Source: a virus. From it: a stretch of DNA of 64,000 nt. A program made the position numbers and the translations under genes. The stretch covers positions 1-64,000 of IMG/VR virus record IMGVR_UViG_3300046809_000507; one strand, given 5' to 3'. The notes under the pieces are model-generated. The model ran no database searches and was not told the origin of the DNA. It saw nothing but the letters and a program-made list of their open reading frames with translations. Shown here piece by piece: positions 36,771 through 44,941 of the stretch (its first letter is position 1; the number at the start of each line of letters is the position of its first letter).

Positions 36771-37688
36771 ATGCCCCGAACCATTTGGAGCGGAGCGATC
36801 AGCTTCGGTCTAGTCACCGTGCCGATCCACGTCGTGTCGGCCACGGAAGATCACAGCATCCGCTTCCACCAGGTCCACCTGGAGGACATGGGCCGGGTCC
36901 GGAACCGGAAGATCTGCTCGATCGACGGGCAAGAGGTCTCCCAGTCGGAGATCGGCAAGGGCTACCAGCTGTCGAAGGACACGCTCATCCCCGTCCTCGA
37001 CGAGGAACTGCGGGAGATGCCCCTGCCGACAGCGAAGGCGATCGAATTGGTGGCGTTCATGCCGGCCGAGAGCATCGACCCGATCCGGATCGGCGAGGGC
37101 TACTACCTCCAGCCGGACGGCCAGGTCGCAGCCAAGCCCTACACCCTCCTCCGTCAGGCGCTGGAGCGGTCGTCGAAGGTGGCCGTCGCGAAGTACGCCT
37201 GGTCCGGCCGCGAGCGTCTCGGCCTGCTCCGGGTCCGCGACAACGTGATCGTGCTGCATGCGATGCGGTGGCCGGACGAGATCCGCAGCCCGGCCGAGCT
37301 GACACCGGAAGCCGTCGAGCTCACCGAAGACGAGATCGCCGAGGCGGAACACCTCATCGACCGGCTGACCATCGACGACCTGGAGGGCGAAGACTTCACC
37401 GACCGGTACACAGAGGCCGTGGAGCAGCTCATCGACGCCAAGCGCGAACACCGCGAACCGCCCACGGCCGAGGAACCGAAGGAGCCAGCACAGATCGTCG
37501 ACCTGATGGCCGCGCTGCAGGAGTCCGTCGCGAAGGCGCGAGAGTCCCGCGGCGAGGACGCCACCGTCCACGACCTGCCGAAGAAGAAGACCGCGGCCAA
37601 GAGGACGGCGAAGAAGCAGCCGACCAAGAAGACGACCACGAAGAAGACTTCCAAGAAGGTGACGGGGCGGAAGCCGCGGAGTGCCTAG
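36771..37688 (+). CDS. ku: Ku double-strand break end-binding protein
   Basis: A 305-residue bacterial-type Ku. The opening MPRTIWSGAISFGLVTVPI is diagnostic, followed by the bridge and pillar core (ICSIDGQEVSQSEIGKGYQL, ELVAFMPAESIDPIRIGEGYYL, LGLLRVRDNVIVLHAMRWPDEIR) and a Lys-rich C-terminal tail (about 270-303), as in Streptomyces Ku proteins. Ku rings thread onto DNA ends and recruit LigD. No LigD gene is in the window, so host ligase must be used. GGAGG precedes the ATG. Phage-encoded Ku is known from mycobacteriophages Omega and Corndog. Confidence 0.93.
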   Translation: MPRTIWSGAISFGLVTVPIHVVSATEDHSIRFHQVHLEDMGRVRNRKICSIDGQEVSQSEIGKGYQLSKDTLIPVLDEELREMPLPTAKAIELVAFMPAESIDPIRIGEGYYLQPDGQVAAKPYTLLRQALERSSKVAVAKYAWSGRERLGLLRVRDNVIVLHAMRWPDEIRSPAELTPEAVELTEDEIAEAEHLIDRLTIDDLEGEDFTDRYTEAVEQLIDAKREHREPPTAEEPKEPAQIVDLMAALQESVAKARESRGEDATVHDLPKKKTAAKRTAKKQPTKKTTTKKTSKKVTGRKPRSA

Positions 37689-38196: not shown

Positions 38197-38532
38197 TCAG
38201 TCCAGGTACCCGAGCTCCGTGTCAGGCCGGCAGTGGGTGCAGGCGGCGACCCCTTCGGCGAGCGCCCGGCGCGCCTGGTCCTCGCTGACGCCCTTGGACC
38301 GCTTCCCCGTCATGTGGCAGTCGCCTGCGTGGACGTACACGGGATGCCCGCCGTTGAGTCCTTGCTCGATCATCCAGTCCGGCTGGGGTGGCCGGGCTTG
38401 CTCGCCGCGCTGCTGCTCGGCCTGCCGCTGCTCCTCGGCTGCGATCCACCTGCGGGTGCGGTCGAGGTCTTGCTCCTGGACGCGGGCGAGGAAGTGCAGG
38501 GAGTCGAGACGGGACGGGGCGGAGTCGTTCAC
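38197..38532 (-). CDS. DUF6233 family protein
   Basis: A 111-residue protein with the DUF6233 pattern: RLDSLHFLARVQEQDLDRTRRWIAAEE, PDWMIEQGLNGGHPVYVHAG and a closing ACTHCRPDTELGYLD. The family is confined to Streptomyces and relatives and has no known role. GTG at 38532 is chosen because TAATAT lies seven bases upstream with no ribosome site, so the message is probably leaderless. It is divergent from the gene at 38597. Confidence 0.78.
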   Translation of the reverse strand: MNDSAPSRLDSLHFLARVQEQDLDRTRRWIAAEEQRQAEQQRGEQARPPQPDWMIEQGLNGGHPVYVHAGDCHMTGKRSKGVSEDQARRALAEGVAACTHCRPDTELGYLD

Positions 38533-38596
38533 GTGTTCGATATTACGGCTGTACGCTGCCACCGGCACACCAGGGGTTCGACGAGAGGAGCAGGCC

Positions 38597-38930: not shown

Positions 38931-39122
38931 GTGGACCGCTACCACCTGCTCCTCACCCTTGATGGCCGGCCCGCGATGCAGGGCTGGTGGACCTCCGAGG
39001 CGACCGCCCGCCGCCAGTTCACGTCGTGGGTCGGCGAGCGCGGCAGCATGCCCGGCGTGCGCATCACCCTCGTCGACGAGGAGACGGGCGAGACGCTGGA
39101 GACCTGGCCCGAGGAGCCGTAG
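38931..39122 (+). CDS. small protein, 63 aa
   Basis: GTG start five bases after the previous stop. The product (MDRYHLLLTLDGRPAMQGWW ...) has a beta-alpha-beta feel, and its acidic end TGETLETWPEEP recalls tails of small phage proteins. Probably co-transcribed with the zinc-binding gene. No family recognised. Confidence 0.6.
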   Translation: MDRYHLLLTLDGRPAMQGWWTSEATARRQFTSWVGERGSMPGVRITLVDEETGETLETWPEEP

Positions 39123-39199
39123 CGACGGCTGCCCCGTTGTCGGTGGCGACTCGTAGAATTGGGCTCATCAATCAGCCATGCTGGCTGCGTGAGCTGAAA

Positions 39200-39232
39200 C
39201 CGCCCCGCCCGCCGAGAGACCGGGCGGGGCGG
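39200..39232. terminator. bidirectional hairpin terminator
   Basis: Perfect 12-bp inverted repeat (CCGCCCCGCCCG / CGGGCGGGGCGG) with a 9-base loop between a rightward and a leftward gene that converge. Confidence 0.75.
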
Positions 39233-39240
39233 ACTGCTGT

Positions 39241-39444
39241 CTAGGCCGCCTCGACCTCCGCGTGCCGGACGGCCCGCTTGAGCCCCATCTCGACGTCGTA
39301 CCGCGGCACCCCGGCCTGCTTGGCGAACGCGGCGACCCCCTCGTGCACGGCGCGCGCCGTGTCCACGGTCAGCTCGCCGTCCTGGATCTGCTTCCAGGCG
39401 GAACGTTCCAGCTCCAGCAGGGGTTCGGGGAAGTCGATGGTCAC
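39241..39444 (-). CDS. small protein, 67 aa, leaderless-type start
   Basis: Product starts MTIDFPEPLLELERSAWKQI and is helical, possibly a small regulator or antitoxin-like protein. The GTG at 39444 has TAGGAT six bases before it and no ribosome site, so a leaderless message is likely. Divergent from the membrane peptide gene at 39484. Confidence 0.55.
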   Translation of the reverse strand: MTIDFPEPLLELERSAWKQIQDGELTVDTARAVHEGVAAFAKQAGVPRYDVEMGLKRAVRHAEVEAA

Positions 39445-39483
39445 CGGGGGATCCTACGCGGGGGCGTCTGTCATGCTGACCGC

Positions 39484-39615
39484 ATGCGAGTGTGGCGCGA
39501 GTACTGGCAGGCTTTCGGGATTCGCTACGGCCTCTTCCAGGCACTCATGGCGGTGCTGTGGGTGGCCAGCGGCATGGGTCTGTTCGGCGGCCTCGCATGG
39601 ATGGCGCTGACCTAG
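39484..39615 (+). CDS. single-pass membrane peptide, 43 aa
   Basis: MRVWREYWQAFGIRYGLFQ followed by one membrane helix (about 20-41). CATGCT stands six bases before the ATG without a ribosome site. Its stop overlaps the stop of the leftward gene at 39612. Small membrane peptides like this can be toxins or superinfection factors; no evidence decides. Confidence 0.45.
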   Translation: MRVWREYWQAFGIRYGLFQALMAVLWVASGMGLFGGLAWMALT

Positions 39616-39800
39616 GCCGCTTCGACGATGTCCCCACGCTCGGCCGCAGTCGCCACCGTCCACTCATCCCGCAGCACCTCGTACCGGCGCCGCGTGTCCC
39701 CGTACAGCCAGCCGCCAGCCCGCACCACCAGGGCGCGGATCTCCTCATTCACCACGGCAGACGGCCGCACGAGGCCCGAGGTCGGGGGAGTGGGAGGCAT
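39612..39800 (-). CDS. small protein, 62 aa, leaderless promoter
   Basis: Product MPPTPPTSGLVRPSAVVNEEIRALV... with a WLYGDTRRRYEVLRDEW stretch that resembles short Streptomyces mobile-element proteins. The promoter is well formed: CTGACC, an 18-base spacer and TAGGAT (on this strand), ending six bases before the ATG at 39800, which implies a leaderless message. Function unknown. Confidence 0.6.
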   Translation of the reverse strand: MPPTPPTSGLVRPSAVVNEEIRALVVRAGGWLYGDTRRRYEVLRDEWTVATAAERGDIVEAA

Positions 39801-39832
39801 GGTCAAATCCTAGAGCCAGCCTCGGACAGCGG

Positions 39833-40081
39833 TCAGCCCTCAGCCGGGGGCTGCTGGCGGGCGACGAACGACCCGAGGCCCGGCTCCGTGTAGATGAGCC
39901 CTTCCTCGCGCAGCCCGCCGTGGACCTTCTGCGCGGTCGCCTGGGCGATCCCGAACTCGGTCGCGAGCTGGATGACCGACGGGACCCGTGTGCGCGGCGG
40001 GTAGGTGCCGTCGGCGATCCGCTGCCGGATCACTTCGGCTACCTGCTTCCACCTGGGCACATCCGCCTCGAATTCGATCAC
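39833..40081 (-). CDS. GntR-family transcription regulator (short)
   Basis: An 82-residue protein that is only the GntR winged helix: VPRWKQVAEVIRQRIADGTYPP, RVPSVIQLATEFGIAQATAQKV and LIYTEPGLGSFVARQ. No effector-binding domain. Such short GntR proteins act as repressors in Streptomyces elements (KorSA of pSAM2 is a GntR repressor of transfer and spread genes). GTG at 40081 gives the compact domain; an ATG at 40102 would add seven residues. A perfect palindrome 57 bases upstream is a good operator candidate. Confidence 0.82.
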   Translation of the reverse strand: MIEFEADVPRWKQVAEVIRQRIADGTYPPRTRVPSVIQLATEFGIAQATAQKVHGGLREEGLIYTEPGLGSFVARQQPPAEG

Positions 40082-40137
40082 ACGGTCAACGTGACACGCC
40101 ATCCCATGCCACGCGAGCGGTAGCACACGTAGCAACC

Positions 40138-40151
40138 CATAGCATGCTATG
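40138..40151. promoter_or_regulatory. palindromic operator candidate for the GntR protein
   Basis: Perfect 14-bp palindrome CATAGCATGCTATG, flanked by a looser outer pair TAGCA ... TGCTA. GntR proteins bind short palindromes of this type. It lies between the regulator gene and the rightward gene at 40218, so it could control both. Confidence 0.6.
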
Positions 40152-40217
40152 TCTAAGCTGCTAATACAGCCCCGCCCACGCACGGCCGGGGAGTGCAGGC
40201 CGGTGAGCGGAGCGGAC

Positions 40218-40448
40218 ATGGACGAGCGTAGAGACCGACCCCCGCCCCACGGAACCGGCACGGCAGCCATACCTCCCGGCGCCCGACTCTCCCCGCTCCA
40301 GCAGGCCTACAGCCGGTACGTCACCCACACCACCGGATGCGACCACTGCCGGGACATCGACCGCGGCTGGTGCGAGAAGTCGGAGCGCCTGCACCGGGAG
40401 TGGAAGCGGCAGGAGGCTGCGGCCGTTCGCGGGCTGGCCGGCGCGTGA
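40218..40448 (+). CDS. small Cys-motif protein, 76 aa
   Basis: Contains GCDHCRDIDRGWCEKSERLHREWKR, with a C-x2-C ... C motif and a basic helix, seen in many short Streptomyces mobile-element proteins. I use the ATG at 40218, which has GGAGCGG upstream; starts at 40203 or 40149 are possible but would run closer to the operator. Likely under control of the GntR operator. Role unknown. Confidence 0.6.
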   Translation: MDERRDRPPPHGTGTAAIPPGARLSPLQQAYSRYVTHTTGCDHCRDIDRGWCEKSERLHREWKRQEAAAVRGLAGA

Positions 40449-40678
40449 CGATATCCACCGTGCGGATGGGGACACGAATCGTCCACGGTGGGACAAGGCG
40501 GCGCGCGACGGGGTCCGTCTGGTGGGGTTTGTGTGGATCGCGTGCCCGTGAAGGTTACGGGCGGGTGACGAGTTGTGTGCATCCCGTGCAGATATATGCA
40601 GAGAGTGGTCTTCCGTAACAGCCAGACGTGATGTTGACTGAATTTCTGTCAGCCGCTCGAAATGAACGTCGTGGCAGG

Positions 40679-40918
40679 TCAGCCGTGGAGGAGGTCGGTG
40701 ATGCGCACGCCAATGACGCGGGCGATCCGCAGCAGCGTGTTCAAGGACGGGTTAGCGACACCGCTCTCGATCTGCTGGTAGTAGGCCCGGTTGAGTGGGA
40801 CGGCGAGGAAGACCTGCTCCTGGGTGAGGTTGCGGTCTGTGCGGACGTTGCGGATGGACCTGCCGATGCGCTGCCGCTCCTCGCGGAGGGCGTCGCTGTC
40901 TGGCGGGTCGGAAGTCAC
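40679..40918 (-). CDS. Xre/Cro-type repressor, 79 aa
   Basis: A single helix-turn-helix domain: IGRSIRNVRTDRNLTQEQVFLAVPLNRAYYQQIESGVANPSLNTLLRIARVIGV, a complete five-helix Xre fold of Cro size without a dimerisation or cleavage domain. GTG at 40918 is used; a TTG at 40933 is also in frame. It faces the LexA box and a rightward gene and could act as the Cro-like arm of a switch. The 230 bases between 40448 and 40679 hold no gene. Confidence 0.8.
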   Translation of the reverse strand: MTSDPPDSDALREERQRIGRSIRNVRTDRNLTQEQVFLAVPLNRAYYQQIESGVANPSLNTLLRIARVIGVRITDLLHG

Positions 40919-40952
40919 TCGACAAACGCTCAACCCAAGACGATCATGAGTC

Positions 40953-40971
40953 AGCCTGGTGGTACCAGGCT
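40953..40971. promoter_or_regulatory. inverted repeat, operator candidate for the Xre protein
   Basis: Perfect 8-bp inverted repeat AGCCTGGT / ACCAGGCT with a three-base centre, 35 bases upstream of the Xre gene start. It overlaps where its promoter should be, which suggests autoregulation. Confidence 0.55.
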
Positions 40972-41040
40972 TTCTGTGATCTTGATCGCCTAGCCGTGCG
41001 GTATGGCAGACGCCGCAGGGCTAGAGGTAGTGTCCGAGAT

Positions 41041-41056
41041 TCGAACGGACGTTCGC
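41041..41056. promoter_or_regulatory. LexA (SOS) box
   Basis: TCGAAC-GGAC-GTTCGC matches the actinobacterial LexA consensus TCGAAC-N4-GTTCGA at all but the last base. It lies in the divergent region between the Xre gene and the gene at 41159. A -10-like TAGTGT at 41028-41033 would place a start point at the box, so LexA would block rightward transcription until DNA damage. Confidence 0.75.
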
Positions 41057-41158
41057 TCGAAAGAGTGAAGAACCCCTCCCACCTGCATCCGGTTGAACAG
41101 GTCGGGCACCAGCGAACAAACCACCACCCCCCGACAGAACGCGGCACTGGGAGACGGC

Positions 41159-41398
41159 ATGGACCGACAGCAGATCCTCGACCTCTACGAGTGGGCGGCA
41201 GGCATCTGCTTCCGGCACCCCGAACGGGGCGAGGTGCCCGCGGCGCGCCTCAAGACGCTCCACCCCCGGGTGGGCCACGAGGAACCCGTTCAAGCCTGCC
41301 GGGACTGCGTCATCGAGCTGGAGCAGGAACGCTGGGCCGAAGCCGGCCGTAACGGGCTCGACTACCAGCCCGGACATGCTGGTGAGACGCTCAATTAG
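41159..41398 (+). CDS. small Cys/His protein downstream of the LexA box
   Basis: A 79-residue protein (MDRQQILDLYEWAAGICFRHP ...) with C-x2-H early and CRDCVIELEQERWAEAGRNG later, a probable zinc site. Start at 41159 has GGGAG upstream. It is the first rightward gene after the LexA box, so it is predicted to be DNA-damage inducible. By position it may be an induction factor such as an antirepressor, but the sequence gives no direct evidence for this. Confidence 0.6.
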   Translation: MDRQQILDLYEWAAGICFRHPERGEVPAARLKTLHPRVGHEEPVQACRDCVIELEQERWAEAGRNGLDYQPGHAGETLN

Positions 41399-41649
41399 GC
41401 CAGGCCAAGGCGGCGGGACTGGGGGAGCGGCTGGGGAGTGAGGCTCCTCGGGGAGTGCCCGGGGAGCCTCGGAAAGCCTAGTCGGGTCAACTCGGCACCA
41501 CTGAGGTCTACTCAGTACCACCAGTTCAGAGGGGTAGTGGCGACCCGACAGGTCAAAGGCCGAGGACCGGCACTCCGTTATATAGGTTCATCGCCAACTG
41601 ATATGCCATCCCGCCCACCAGGCCCGGCAAGGCCACCGGCACCTCGGCC
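41399..41649. repeat. non-coding repeat region beside integrase 2
   Basis: This 251-base stretch holds GAGGCTCC / GGAGCCTC (41440-41447 and 41463-41470), CTGAGGTCTACTCAG (41501-41515, imperfect palindrome) and a 17-base direct repeat GGGGAGCGGCTGGGGAG at 41422-41438 that recurs at 41772-41788 inside the 3' end of the integrase gene. Regions next to integrase genes commonly hold attP and its arm sites; the core cannot be located without a host junction. Confidence 0.45.
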
Positions 41650-43068
41650 TCAGACGTTCGCGTCAACGGATTCTTGCAGCTCAAGTGCCGTATCCAGCAC
41701 CTCAGGTTGCCATAGCTCACCGGCCTGACGGGGGAGCAGGCCACCGCCCGAAACCCCTGAAACAGACACCTGGGGAGCGGCTGGGGAGGATGGCGCGGGA
41801 TCATCCGTCCTCGCGAACCAGGCGTCCAGAGCCTGCCGGCCACGGCCGTCCGCCTCGGGCATGAAGTGCCCGTACACCCGCAGCGTGATCGAAGCGTCAG
41901 CATGACCAAGCCACTTCGAGACTGCCACGGGATTCTCCCGCGAGTCCAGCTGCACGCTCGCATACGTGTGGCGCAGCGAGTGGAAGCCCATCTCGTGCGT
42001 AGGCCCGTACACGAGGCGGGTACCCACACCAGAACTCCGGGGGACGCGCTTCGGCTTCGGAATCACCCCGGCCTCGGCCAACGCCCACTTCCAATGATCC
42101 TCGTTCCACATGTTCGCCCGGACGGCATTGCCATTCCTGTTAACGACCAACAGTCTGTGCGTCTGCGGCGCCCGCTCCTTCGCCTCCACCTTGCTCGTCG
42201 GCGGCCGAGGATCCTTCCAGGGGAGCGTCACAGGCTTTGCCGGGAAGCGGTCCAGGTGCTGCGCCAGGCGCTGCGCGAGATGGTCCGGCATCGGGACGGT
42301 GCGCGTCTTGTTCCCCTTCGGGAGCGAGAACACGAGCTTCCCTTCGATGCTGCGGATCTGGCGCCGCACGTGGATGAAGCCGCCCTCCACGTCGATGTCG
42401 TCCTCCGACAGGGCGAGCACCTCCCCCTGCCGCAGTCCCGCCCCTGCCCCGATGTCGACGAGCACGCGGTAGTACTCGGGCAGTTGGGCCTGCACGGCGA
42501 GAACCCGGCTCCTGGTCCACGCGCGGGCCTTCGAGCGGGGCGCGGACGGCGGCTTGAGAGTGGGCGCCCGGCACGGGTTCTTGGAGATGCGCTCGTCGTC
42601 GACGGCGCACTCCAGGATGTTGTTGAGGTACCCCCACGCGACGACTGCGGTCCCCGGCGCGACCTCCCCCTCCAACTGCTTGAGCCAGACGCGCAGCGAG
42701 TCCACCTTGATGAGCCTGAGCGGGGTGCTCCCGAGGTGGGGGAGGATCTGGCCGCGGATCCGGTGCCCTACGGTCTGCAGGGTTGCGGGGTCACCGGTTT
42801 TGGACGGCCACCAGTGCTGGTCCACGTAGTCCCGCAGCAGCATGTTGCCGTCGCGCGGGTCGATGAACTCGCCCCTGTTGCTGTCGGAGATGGCCTTCGC
42901 GAGCCACGCGTTGGCGGCTTCCTTCTGCTTGTCGGGGAACGACCGGGCGCGCACTCCGGGGATGCCGGCGACCTTGTAGCGCTGGCCTTTGCCGTATCGC
43001 TCGGTACGGATGGTCCGCTTGCCGTCCGGCGCCTTCTTGAGCCAGCGGTCTTCGATGTACCCAGCCAT
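41650..43068 (-). CDS. int: tyrosine recombinase (integrase 2)
   Basis: A 472-residue phage/element integrase with a full set of catalytic residues: R213 in AGLRQGEVLAL, H363-x2-R366 in FHSLRHTYA, H389 in WLGHADASIT and nucleophile Y399 in RVYGHF. The N-terminus (1-65) looks like an arm-binding domain, 75-165 is the core-binding domain, and a 60-residue C-terminal tail follows. It resembles integrases of Streptomyces integrative elements and prophages that use tRNA genes. An excisionase-like gene lies at 44654. Confidence 0.92.
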   Translation of the reverse strand: MAGYIEDRWLKKAPDGKRTIRTERYGKGQRYKVAGIPGVRARSFPDKQKEAANAWLAKAISDSNRGEFIDPRDGNMLLRDYVDQHWWPSKTGDPATLQTVGHRIRGQILPHLGSTPLRLIKVDSLRVWLKQLEGEVAPGTAVVAWGYLNNILECAVDDERISKNPCRAPTLKPPSAPRSKARAWTRSRVLAVQAQLPEYYRVLVDIGAGAGLRQGEVLALSEDDIDVEGGFIHVRRQIRSIEGKLVFSLPKGNKTRTVPMPDHLAQRLAQHLDRFPAKPVTLPWKDPRPPTSKVEAKERAPQTHRLLVVNRNGNAVRANMWNEDHWKWALAEAGVIPKPKRVPRSSGVGTRLVYGPTHEMGFHSLRHTYASVQLDSRENPVAVSKWLGHADASITLRVYGHFMPEADGRGRQALDAWFARTDDPAPSSPAAPQVSVSGVSGGGLLPRQAGELWQPEVLDTALELQESVDANV

Positions 43069-43090
43069 GTTGCCCCCTCAGCCCTCGCGG

Positions 43091-43537
43091 TCAGGCCGCC
43101 ATGGAGTCGGGAGGAGAATCCATGGTGACGATCTCTCCGTGCCACAGCTGGAACCACTGTCCCCCGGCCAGGAACTCCTCGATGGAGGTATTGAGGAGCG
43201 GCGCGATTTTGTCGATCGTCGCGGTAGGGGAGACGTACAGGACGACGCGCCCCTTGTGCTCGCGGATGTCGATGTACGGCGCCGGCTGGAACGGAGAGAC
43301 CTCGAAGACAACGCAGATCGGGTTCTCGGGGTGATCGGCGGAGACGATCTCGCCGTCCCACAGCTGGTACCACTGGGCGTTCTTCACGAAGTCGCGCAGG
43401 GTCTCGTTGAGTGAGGGGAGGAACTGCTTGGCCCTGGTCCCCTTGGCTACGCGGATTTCGACGAGTCCGCGGCTTTCGCGCCAGTCGGACATCTTCCCGG
43501 GCTTGAGGTTGGCGGCTTGGTACACAACACGCAGCAT
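43091..43537 (-). CDS. protein with duplicated ~60-residue unit
   Basis: A 148-residue protein in which two halves match: QFLPSLNETLRDFVKNAQWY-QLWDGEIVSAD in the first and KIAPLLNTSIEEFLAGGQWF-QLWHGEIVTMD in the second. The shared WxQLWxGEIV strand and preceding amphipathic helix suggest two copies of a small alpha/beta fold. GGGAGGG precedes the ATG. It lies between integrase 2 and the repressor and has its own promoter candidate. I do not recognise the family. Confidence 0.7.
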   Translation of the reverse strand: MLRVVYQAANLKPGKMSDWRESRGLVEIRVAKGTRAKQFLPSLNETLRDFVKNAQWYQLWDGEIVSADHPENPICVVFEVSPFQPAPYIDIREHKGRVVLYVSPTATIDKIAPLLNTSIEEFLAGGQWFQLWHGEIVTMDSPPDSMAA

Positions 43538-43584
43538 GGCGCCCTCCCGTTGTGGCGGTGCGCCAGTGACGCAACGGCCACCAG

Positions 43585-43625
43585 TGCACGGTTGTGGAAG
43601 GGTACGACCTGTTAGCGGATGGCCA
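43585..43625 (-). promoter_or_regulatory. promoter candidate for the leftward duplicated-unit gene
   Basis: On the minus strand TTGTGG and TACCCT stand 18 bases apart within about 43596-43626, upstream of the gene starting at 43537. Position and spacing fit a sigma-70-type promoter; the exact start point is not known. Confidence 0.4.
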
Positions 43626-43694
43626 CAATCTGTTGTAAGAAATGTCTACTTAGGAACTTTCCGATCAGGCGCCATGCTGGTACCCGTGACCGTG

Positions 43695-44123
43695 CTAGTC
43701 CTCGCGCCGCGACCGCTCGTCCGCCTCGATCATGGCGAGCCAGCGCCTGCGCTGCTGCTCGGTCATTGCGCCGACGTGCCCGAGGATGATGCGCGCGGTG
43801 CCGCCGTAGCCGGCCAGTTCCGTGGCCCGGTAGTCGAGCCACTGCTCGGCTGCGGCCTCTTTGATGCGCAGCTCCGACTTGCCGAGCGCGGCTGCGATGG
43901 CGCCGATCTGGGTCGGGTTGGGGGCTGCGGCCGGCGGGTTCCTGACGAGCTTCTGGAAGTACTGCCAGGAGATCTTCGTGCCGGTCTTGGGGTCGATCGC
44001 GGCTTTGCCGAGGTCTCGAAGACTCTTGCCGCCGTCGAGGGCGTCCTGGATGAGCTGGGAGAGCGGGCCAACGGGGGATGGCTCGGCCGCGCTGGAGTCC
44101 GGCGCGGGGGACGCTGCCGTCAT
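43695..44123 (-). CDS. phage repressor-like helix-turn-helix protein
   Basis: A 142-residue protein with LSQLIQDALDGGKSLRDLGKAAIDPKTG followed by ISWQYFQKLVRNPPAAAPNPTQIGAIAAALG, a helix-turn-helix of the kind found in actinophage immunity repressors, and a helical C-terminus (AEQWLDYRATELAGYGGTARII). ATG at 44123 is used; a GTG at 44147 would add eight residues. It is divergent from the small HTH gene at 44370, and the region between has repeated GTAGAC/GTCTAC words, an arrangement like a lysogeny switch. Confidence 0.68.
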   Translation of the reverse strand: MTAASPAPDSSAAEPSPVGPLSQLIQDALDGGKSLRDLGKAAIDPKTGTKISWQYFQKLVRNPPAAAPNPTQIGAIAAALGKSELRIKEAAAEQWLDYRATELAGYGGTARIILGHVGAMTEQQRRRWLAMIEADERSRRED

Positions 44124-44147
44124 GTCCTGGTCGTCCTCTCGGTTCAC

Positions 44148-44369: not shown

Positions 44370-44651
44370 TTGAGCCGACCGCGCTACACGCTCAAATCCG
44401 CCGAAATGTTCAGATGGTTCATGCAGAACCCCTGGACCGGTATCCCCTTCAGGGTTCGCACCTTGGCGGAAGCCGTGAACGTCAGCCCCGGCTTGATTCA
44501 GAAGCTCGCCAGCGGCGCCCAGGACAACGTCGACGTACTCGTCGCCCACGACCTCGTGAGGGCGTTCGGGTGCAGCATCCTCAACCTTTTCGCGCCCCCA
44601 GTGACGCCAAACTGCGTCACTTCGACTACGAATGACGATCAAAAGGAGTGA
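44370..44651 (+). CDS. small Xre-like phage regulator, 93 aa
   Basis: Residues 1-70 carry a helix-turn-helix (FRVRTLAEAVNVSPGLIQKLASG-type, then VAHDLVRAFGCSILNLF), common in Streptomyces elements as a short Cro-like protein. It starts with TTG at 44370; GGAG five bases upstream decides this start and no ATG or GTG fits. Divergent from the repressor gene and followed after two bases by the excisionase-like gene, so it probably begins the early operon. Confidence 0.72.
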   Translation: MSRPRYTLKSAEMFRWFMQNPWTGIPFRVRTLAEAVNVSPGLIQKLASGAQDNVDVLVAHDLVRAFGCSILNLFAPPVTPNCVTSTTNDDQKE

Positions 44652-44653
44652 CC

Positions 44654-44941
44654 GTGCCCCGCAACCCCCCGCAGTTCACGCAAGCGGCCCCACCCGGCCA
44701 CGTCTACATCGACGAGGCGTCCCGCCTCTCCGGTCGAACCATCGAGACCCTCTACAAGGACCGGAAGATCCAGCGCCGCACTGGCAGTTGCAACGGCCCC
44801 CGGTCCAAGACGATCAACCGCAAGGCCGTCTGGAGCGTCGCCGAGATCGACGCGTGGCTTGACGCGCAGATCGGCCCCGGCCCCGACGAGCAGATGCTCC
44901 ACAGCTCCCGGCCGTCCGAGCCGGCCCGCGCCGCCGCCTAG
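44654..44941 (+). CDS. excisionase-like winged helix protein, 95 aa
   Basis: HVYIDEASRLSGRTIETLYKDRKIQRR followed by RKAVWSVAEIDAWLDAQ is the AlpA/excisionase-type (MerR-like) DNA-binding pattern. GTG at 44654 is chosen because AAGGAG ends five bases before it; a GTG at 44648 would overlap the ribosome site. It may direct integrase 2 toward excision, although it sits 1.6 kb from that gene and in the opposite direction. Confidence 0.68.
   Translation: MPRNPPQFTQAAPPGHVYIDEASRLSGRTIETLYKDRKIQRRTGSCNGPRSKTINRKAVWSVAEIDAWLDAQIGPGPDEQMLHSSRPSEPARAAA

Follow-up and report, generated by a model that had tools for sequence, protein, structure and literature searches.

In coliphage 186, the protein Tum is the product of a LexA-controlled gene that lies far from the phage repressor. 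The Gifsy prophages likewise place antirepressors, GfoA and GfhA, under LexA control, and the corresponding genes are found outside the immunity region (PMC3121763). Bacillus phage GIL01 uses LexA as its lysogeny repressor and encodes a truncated LexA called gp6; it is a non-integrating phage without a dedicated repressor (PMC6182141). In Streptomyces venezuelae, the prophage genes vnz_21525, vnz_21545 and vnz_21550 are bound by LexA at boxes located 123-182 bp before the gene, and are induced 190- to 526-fold by mitomycin C (PMC9380542). Stress sensing by Streptomyces prophages is little known, and Samy, a phiC31-like prophage of S. ambofaciens with a serine integrase, is not induced by mitomycin C (PMC11302927).

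The locus described here indicates that a virus of Streptomyces probably senses DNA damage in its host by a route other than a self-cleaving phage repressor. It lies in a window of 64,000 nucleotides, by which we mean the whole stretch of DNA that was analysed (bases 1-64000 of a 68.9-kb virus record). The candidate operator and its immediate surroundings comprise the following features.

40679-40918, minus strand: Cro-size Xre regulator, accessory and interchangeable (Pfam HTH_3, 4e-12).
40953-40971, unstranded: inverted repeat AGCCTGGT-GGT-ACCAGGCT, the likely Xre operator, which varies with Xre type.
40990-41024, unstranded: inverted repeat around the -35 element, with 12-nt arms at 40990-41001 and 41013-41024 that are 92% complementary.
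41004-41009, plus strand: predicted -35 element, TGGCAG here and TGGCAT in most relatives, with a conserved 18-nt distance to the -10 element.
41028-41033, plus strand: predicted -10 element TAGTGT, conserved in relatives, where it lies 7-8 nt ahead of the box.
41041-41056, unstranded: LexA/SOS box TCGAAC-GGAC-GTTCGC, assigned by consensus match, matrix score and position in relatives.
41051-41070, plus strand: second inverted repeat GTTCRC-N8-GTGAAC, which shares the right half of the box (alignment pairing).
41149-41158, plus strand: ribosome binding site GGGAGACGGC before the small gene, recognized by sequence and by a GGAG conserved in the upstream alignment.
41159-41398, plus strand: gene for a 79-aa Cys/His protein under the box (coding score and 37-row alignment).

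An earlier note on this DNA had described a near-perfect LexA box that departs from the SOS consensus at its last base alone and lies between a divergent Xre gene and a small Cys/His gene, and this description stands. The site reads TCGAACGGACGTTCGC, differs from TCGAACNNNNGTTCGA (TCGAACN4GTTCGA) by that single mismatch, and is the only site with one or no mismatch in the 68.9-kb record. Taken by itself, consensus counting makes the box only mildly unexpected and hence weak evidence: 0.11 matches to TCGAACNNNNGTTC are expected in the window, and a match is present in 9 of 100 shuffles. Counts in host genomes were uninformative, with one-mismatch consensus sites about as common as reversed controls, and we therefore used a symmetric LexA matrix derived from recA, lexA and dnaE2 promoters, each gene being sampled in about 30 Streptomyces genomes. 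In this matrix, which is built from three genes only and agrees with the motif tCGAAC-N4-GNNCGa established by ChIP-seq and SPR for S. venezuelae LexA (PMC9380542), the box scores 18.98 bits and is the top site of the window, where 0.05 sites of that strength would be expected per 64 kb of first-order random sequence. Host operators score 16-19 bits (recA), 19.5 bits (lexA) and 14.7-21.2 bits (dnaE2) by the same measure. Streptomyces LexA operators are themselves often imperfect, since recA has TCGAACATCCATTCTT or a near match, and lexA has TCGAACGTGTGTTTGG, in nearly all species. The box agrees with the S. venezuelae ChIP-seq consensus (PMC9380542) at all strongly conserved positions, and differs at the weak last base only.

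The decisive evidence for the putative operator is the conservation of its position in relatives. Scans with the 41159 protein recovered relatives from viral contigs and, among cellular genomes, from Streptomyces only. A box is present in 37 of 39 non-redundant loci, including those whose proteins retain as little as ~45% identity, and in most loci it is the best or sole site above 12.5 bits within up to 10 kb. Its distance to the start codon is 108-124 nt in 36 of the 39 loci and 53 nt in locus L020. The two boxless loci, L018 (which is rearranged) and L026, both have unrelated upstream sequence. A search of 393 Streptomyces genomes added nine clear homologs, of which six carry the box (15-19 bits) and three distant ones (L156, L157 and L160) do not. 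Within the box, the left half TCGAAC is conserved among the loci, and the spacer almost invariably has the form R..Y seen in host boxes. It is probable from this pattern that evolution has kept the box as a putative landing site for host LexA.

The upstream alignment of relatives also reveals a conserved promoter-like element, TGGCat-N18-TAGTGT, directly upstream of the box. Transcription is predicted to start near 41040, at the box edge, and the box would therefore cover the predicted start. In its consensus match, a score within the host range, its promoter placement and its positional conservation, the site resembles a Streptomyces LexA operator. Given also its independence of the neighbouring Xre type (see below), the proposal of the earlier note that gene 41159 is under LexA is supported by sequence, and we regard such control as well supported. 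Host LexA is very probably able to bind the box, and induction of the gene upon DNA damage is predicted with nearly the same assurance.

The inverted repeat around the -35 element is present in most relatives, some of which carry matching changes in both arms. It has the form AGCCSTGCGG..CCGCAGGGCT, with TGGCATATGCC inside it in relatives. We considered CCGCAGGGCT as a phage-wide operator and rejected this idea on finding no excess of the sequence in the window.

The product of the boxed gene is most simply viewed as a small metal-binding protein. In the 37-row alignment, residues C17, F18, R19, C47 and C50 are invariant and H20 is nearly so, and the protein probably binds zinc, with C17, H20, C47 and C50 as the likely site. 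No Pfam or PHROG family matches it, and although its AlphaFold model has a pLDDT of 93.9, a fold search with this model returned no PDB or viral match at E<=0.001. A comparison with isolated phages gave no hit, either to the DNA of 39000-44000 or to the small gene at the protein level. Judged by these comparisons, the protein is a new family. Distant Streptomyces proteins (L161-L178) share a CFRC...CxxC pattern, with no strong box at the matching place, and are possible cellular cousins of the phage protein.

Beyond the small gene lie the following features.

41399-41649, unstranded: region expected to hold attP, by the att positions of an S. coeruleorubidus prophage.
41650-43068, minus strand: tyrosine integrase (PHROG phrog_1, 1e-49; Pfam Phage_integrase, 6e-13).
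43091-43537, minus strand: p147, a 148-aa protein encoded between repressor and integrase, and by co-variation a possible partner of the small protein.
43695-44147, minus strand: probable immunity repressor with an HTH only and no peptidase (phrog_12831 transcriptional repressor, 6.8e-6; conserved in relatives).
44421-44651, plus strand: divergent HTH gene at the start of the early genes (PHROG 5823, 6.5e-4; gene calls).
44648-44941, plus strand: likely excisionase with a MerR/AlpA-like HTH, predicted from a relative in the same place that weakly matches MerR/HTH_17/AlpA.

The order along the phage is a GntR-type gene (39833-40102, minus strand), Xre, box, small gene, integrase, p147, repressor and the divergent early genes, and the same order is found in relatives having the region. 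The integrated state can be seen in a completely sequenced S. coeruleorubidus chromosome, where direct copies of a 34-bp sequence, TCAGCCGTTGGGACGCAGCGTCCACACGACGGTC, bound a prophage of ~62.7 kb. One end holds the integrase, p147 and the repressor, with the att repeat ~85 bp past int, and the other holds the box and small gene, with the att repeat ~226 bp past the small gene, such that the boxed gene is ~60 kb from the repressor. Host genes also follow directly after the small gene in loci L021 and L025. This att mapping places the box outside the immunity region. The earlier note had put the box inside the lysogeny switch, and this part of it is not supported: the likely repressor is the gene at 43695-44147, the boxed gene sits at the opposite prophage end beside att, and the Xre regulator has a likely operator of its own that varies independently of the box.

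A TTCGAAC motif might in principle represent part of a tRNA or an attP core. Both readings were rejected, given that no tRNA is found in the window or the prophage loci and that the S. coeruleorubidus att repeat is located past the small gene. On the S. acidicola contig NZ_VMNX01000001.1, loci L020 and L021 are nearly identical 5-kb prophage ends that lie 89.9 kb apart, one followed by an integrase and the other by host genes, as in tandem prophages. The phage also carries a Ku gene at 36819-37688 of the window (Pfam Ku, 1e-40), and a Ku-like protein is encoded at L018:1789-2700, in a prophage remnant of Streptomyces sp. NBC_00568.

The repressor is 150 aa long and consists of an HTH alone. 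Genes for S24 (self-cleaving) or M78 peptidases were not found in the record, and the repressor is therefore probably non-cleavable. This agrees with the earlier suggestion that the phage senses damage without a cleavable repressor, in that no S24/M78-type repressor system is detectable in the record. A route from the small protein to such a repressor is suggested by co-variation among relatives, although Mantel correlations of this kind are weak evidence for protein contact: the small protein shows its strongest co-variation with p147 (r=0.50, or a partial Mantel value of 0.44, p=0.0003, after correction for integrase and repressor), p147 is in turn correlated with the repressor (partial Mantel 0.37, p=0.0003), and correction for p147 removes any relation between the small protein and the repressor (0.05, p=0.31). 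On the phage map the integrase gene is situated between the small gene and those for p147 and the repressor, and its product correlates less than the p147 pairs do. From these relationships we infer, with moderate confidence, a chain that runs from the small protein through p147 to the repressor, and hence antirepression. The p147 protein contains two similar segments, WYQLWDGEIV and WFQLWHGEIV, and the position of its gene between repressor and integrase is fixed in relatives having the region.

We therefore lean towards the interpretation that the box is a host-LexA operator whose gene, on damage, undoes phage repression. In a lysogen, LexA would sit over the transcription start of the TGGCat-N18-TAGTGT promoter and keep the gene for the 79-aa zinc-type protein silent. 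DNA damage would lead RecA to trigger LexA self-cleavage, and the small protein would then be made. It would undo repression, most likely by way of p147, of the HTH-only repressor at the opposite end of the prophage, or of both, and the lifting of repression would permit early gene expression, excision and lytic growth. Such a course of events does not require a cleavable phage repressor. What can be read directly from the sequences is the box with its conservation and its lack of dependence on Xre, the promoter-like element and the absence of S24/M78 peptidases. That the small protein acts as an antirepressor is a more tentative proposal, for which we would put the case at slightly short of even.

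A different role for the gene would leave the LexA operator intact. The small protein might act in excision, as a directionality factor timed by the SOS response, or might modulate the host, its gene happening to adjoin att; we regard this as unlikely but deserving of consideration. The phage gene that encodes it is the final one ahead of att, its co-variation with the integrase persists after correction (0.21, p=0.008), several phage genes belong to the S. venezuelae LexA regulon (PMC9380542), and the protein resembles no known antirepressor or fold. However, the MerR/AlpA-like gene at 44648 is a better candidate for the excisionase, and the co-variation of the small protein with p147 is stronger than that with the integrase.

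The second inverted repeat raises the question of whether the conserved sequence is read by LexA at all. Together, the box and this repeat form GAAC-N4-GTTCRC-N8-GTGAAC, whose three GAAC half-sites might constitute the operator of another phage or host regulator, with the likeness to LexA sites being incidental. Consistent with this, the second repeat is conserved with a fixed N8 spacing. Base 15 of the box is A in about half of the loci, and base 16 is nearly always C because the second repeat needs it, which suggests that the right half of the box is shaped partly by this repeat. However, the second repeat does not explain either the TCGAAC left half, which lies outside it, or the retention of the box in locus L020/L154, where the repeat is lost. 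Moreover, the box is uncorrelated with Xre type, its score equals those of the recA and lexA operators, and other genes of this phage family have TCGAAC boxes that lack a GTGAAC arm. We thus consider control by another regulator to be improbable.

The second repeat may itself form a hairpin in the leader or serve as a further operator. Its stem is paired in 93.6% of alignment cells, compared to 29-48% for slid controls, and one pair exhibits a G-U/A-U exchange. These features could be taken to mean that the conserved element is an RNA hairpin in the 5' UTR (41051-41070) and that the box is its by-product. However, the covariation test found no stem pair changed on both sides, TCGAAC is conserved outside the stem, and the stem is absent in L020, making this explanation very improbable.

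The neighbouring Xre gene provides a useful internal comparison, for its recognition helix is of several quite different types among relatives. The repeat at 40953-40971, which adjoins the Xre start, follows these types (Mantel r=0.61, p=0.0005, n=34) and is the likely operator of Xre. No such correlation exists for the box (Mantel r=-0.03, p=0.64). Thus, the box should be read by a factor that all of these hosts or phages have in common; host LexA is such a factor. The box does lie between the divergent Xre and 41159 genes, but these results, and the better candidacy of the repressor gene at 43695-44147 for the lysogeny switch, lead us to reject as most improbable the idea that it is a Cro/Xre operator of a local switch. 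The GntR-type HTH gene has no effector domain, and its type is interchangeable among relatives, like that of Xre.

Additional genes of this phage family appear to be linked to similar boxes. Two further features of the window are relevant.

38197-38532, minus strand: DUF6233-type gene under a second box (alignment to relatives matching Pfam DUF6233).
38525-38540, minus strand: second SOS-like box, TCGAACACGTGAACGA, over the DUF6233 start codon (14.8 bits, second best in the window).

The window and about a dozen relatives have TCGAAC before the DUF6233 start codon, and the site is partly coding, such that its upstream half alone constitutes independent evidence. The arrangement suggests that the DUF6233 gene is a candidate for a leaderless LexA-controlled transcript. 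Furthermore, 11 other relatives encode a LexA DNA-binding domain of ~74 aa without a peptidase (including L011:2540-2764, L012:1495-1719 and L017:2411-2629), and the three of these mini-LexA proteins that were tested match Pfam at 1e-16 to 1e-20. A TCGAAC box is found just before each mini-LexA gene, at 24 nt before the start codon in 10 of the 11. Several mini-LexA loci have a DUF6233 gene without its own box, and boxed DUF6233 and boxed mini-LexA genes may be alternatives. No mini-LexA gene scored over the cut-off in the record studied here. We speculate that the family has its own small SOS regulon, in which zinc-type induction proteins from the att end act via p147 and a non-cleavable repressor, and a second boxed gene is either DUF6233 or, in relatives, a mini-LexA that might retain LexA at these same boxes or take its place there. 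This broader scheme is possible, though doubtful in its entirety.

An entire family of phages thus seems to be coupled straight to the LexA of its hosts, in the absence of a cleavable repressor, by means of a protein family that lacks a fold match. The locus thereby offers a specific and testable example of lysogeny coupled to the SOS response in Streptomyces. The peptidase-less LexA proteins of relatives raise the additional question of whether phages set their own threshold at SOS boxes.

Among the described systems, GIL01 resembles this family in having host LexA boxes in a temperate phage, and the mini-LexA of the relatives resembles gp6. However, neither the absence of a dedicated repressor nor the phage-encoded truncated LexA that mark GIL01-type lysogeny is found in this phage, which has the phrog_12831 repressor and an integrase and lacks a mini-LexA. 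Samy is also a temperate Streptomyces phage, although its serine integrase differs from the tyrosine integrase here. The S. venezuelae prophage boxes, TCGAACACCGGCGC and TCGAACACAAGGCC, differ in sequence from the box of this locus, but both kinds are found before Streptomyces phage genes. Tum of coliphage 186, to which the earlier note had compared this gene, is similar in that the LexA-controlled gene (predicted in our case) is distant from the repressor, and differs in that the small protein matches no Pfam or PHROG family. That comparison is reasonable in principle, but the Gifsy antirepressors provide the closer parallel (PMC3121763). Differences from Gifsy are that the host phylum and the box are others, that the gene here is beside att, and that its action on the repressor is a proposal. 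Searches of Pfam and PHROG revealed no kinship of the small protein with known antirepressors, and sequence does not support its membership of such a family. What the two systems share is a small gene outside the immunity region, a box in its promoter, and a repressor that is not of the cleavable kind, judged here by its domain content; even the palindrome that precedes the box has a counterpart before the Gifsy LexA box (PMC3121763). The arrangement fits an SOS-controlled antirepressor of the Gifsy/Tum type, and by analogy we expect that the system described here works in the manner of these SOS connections.
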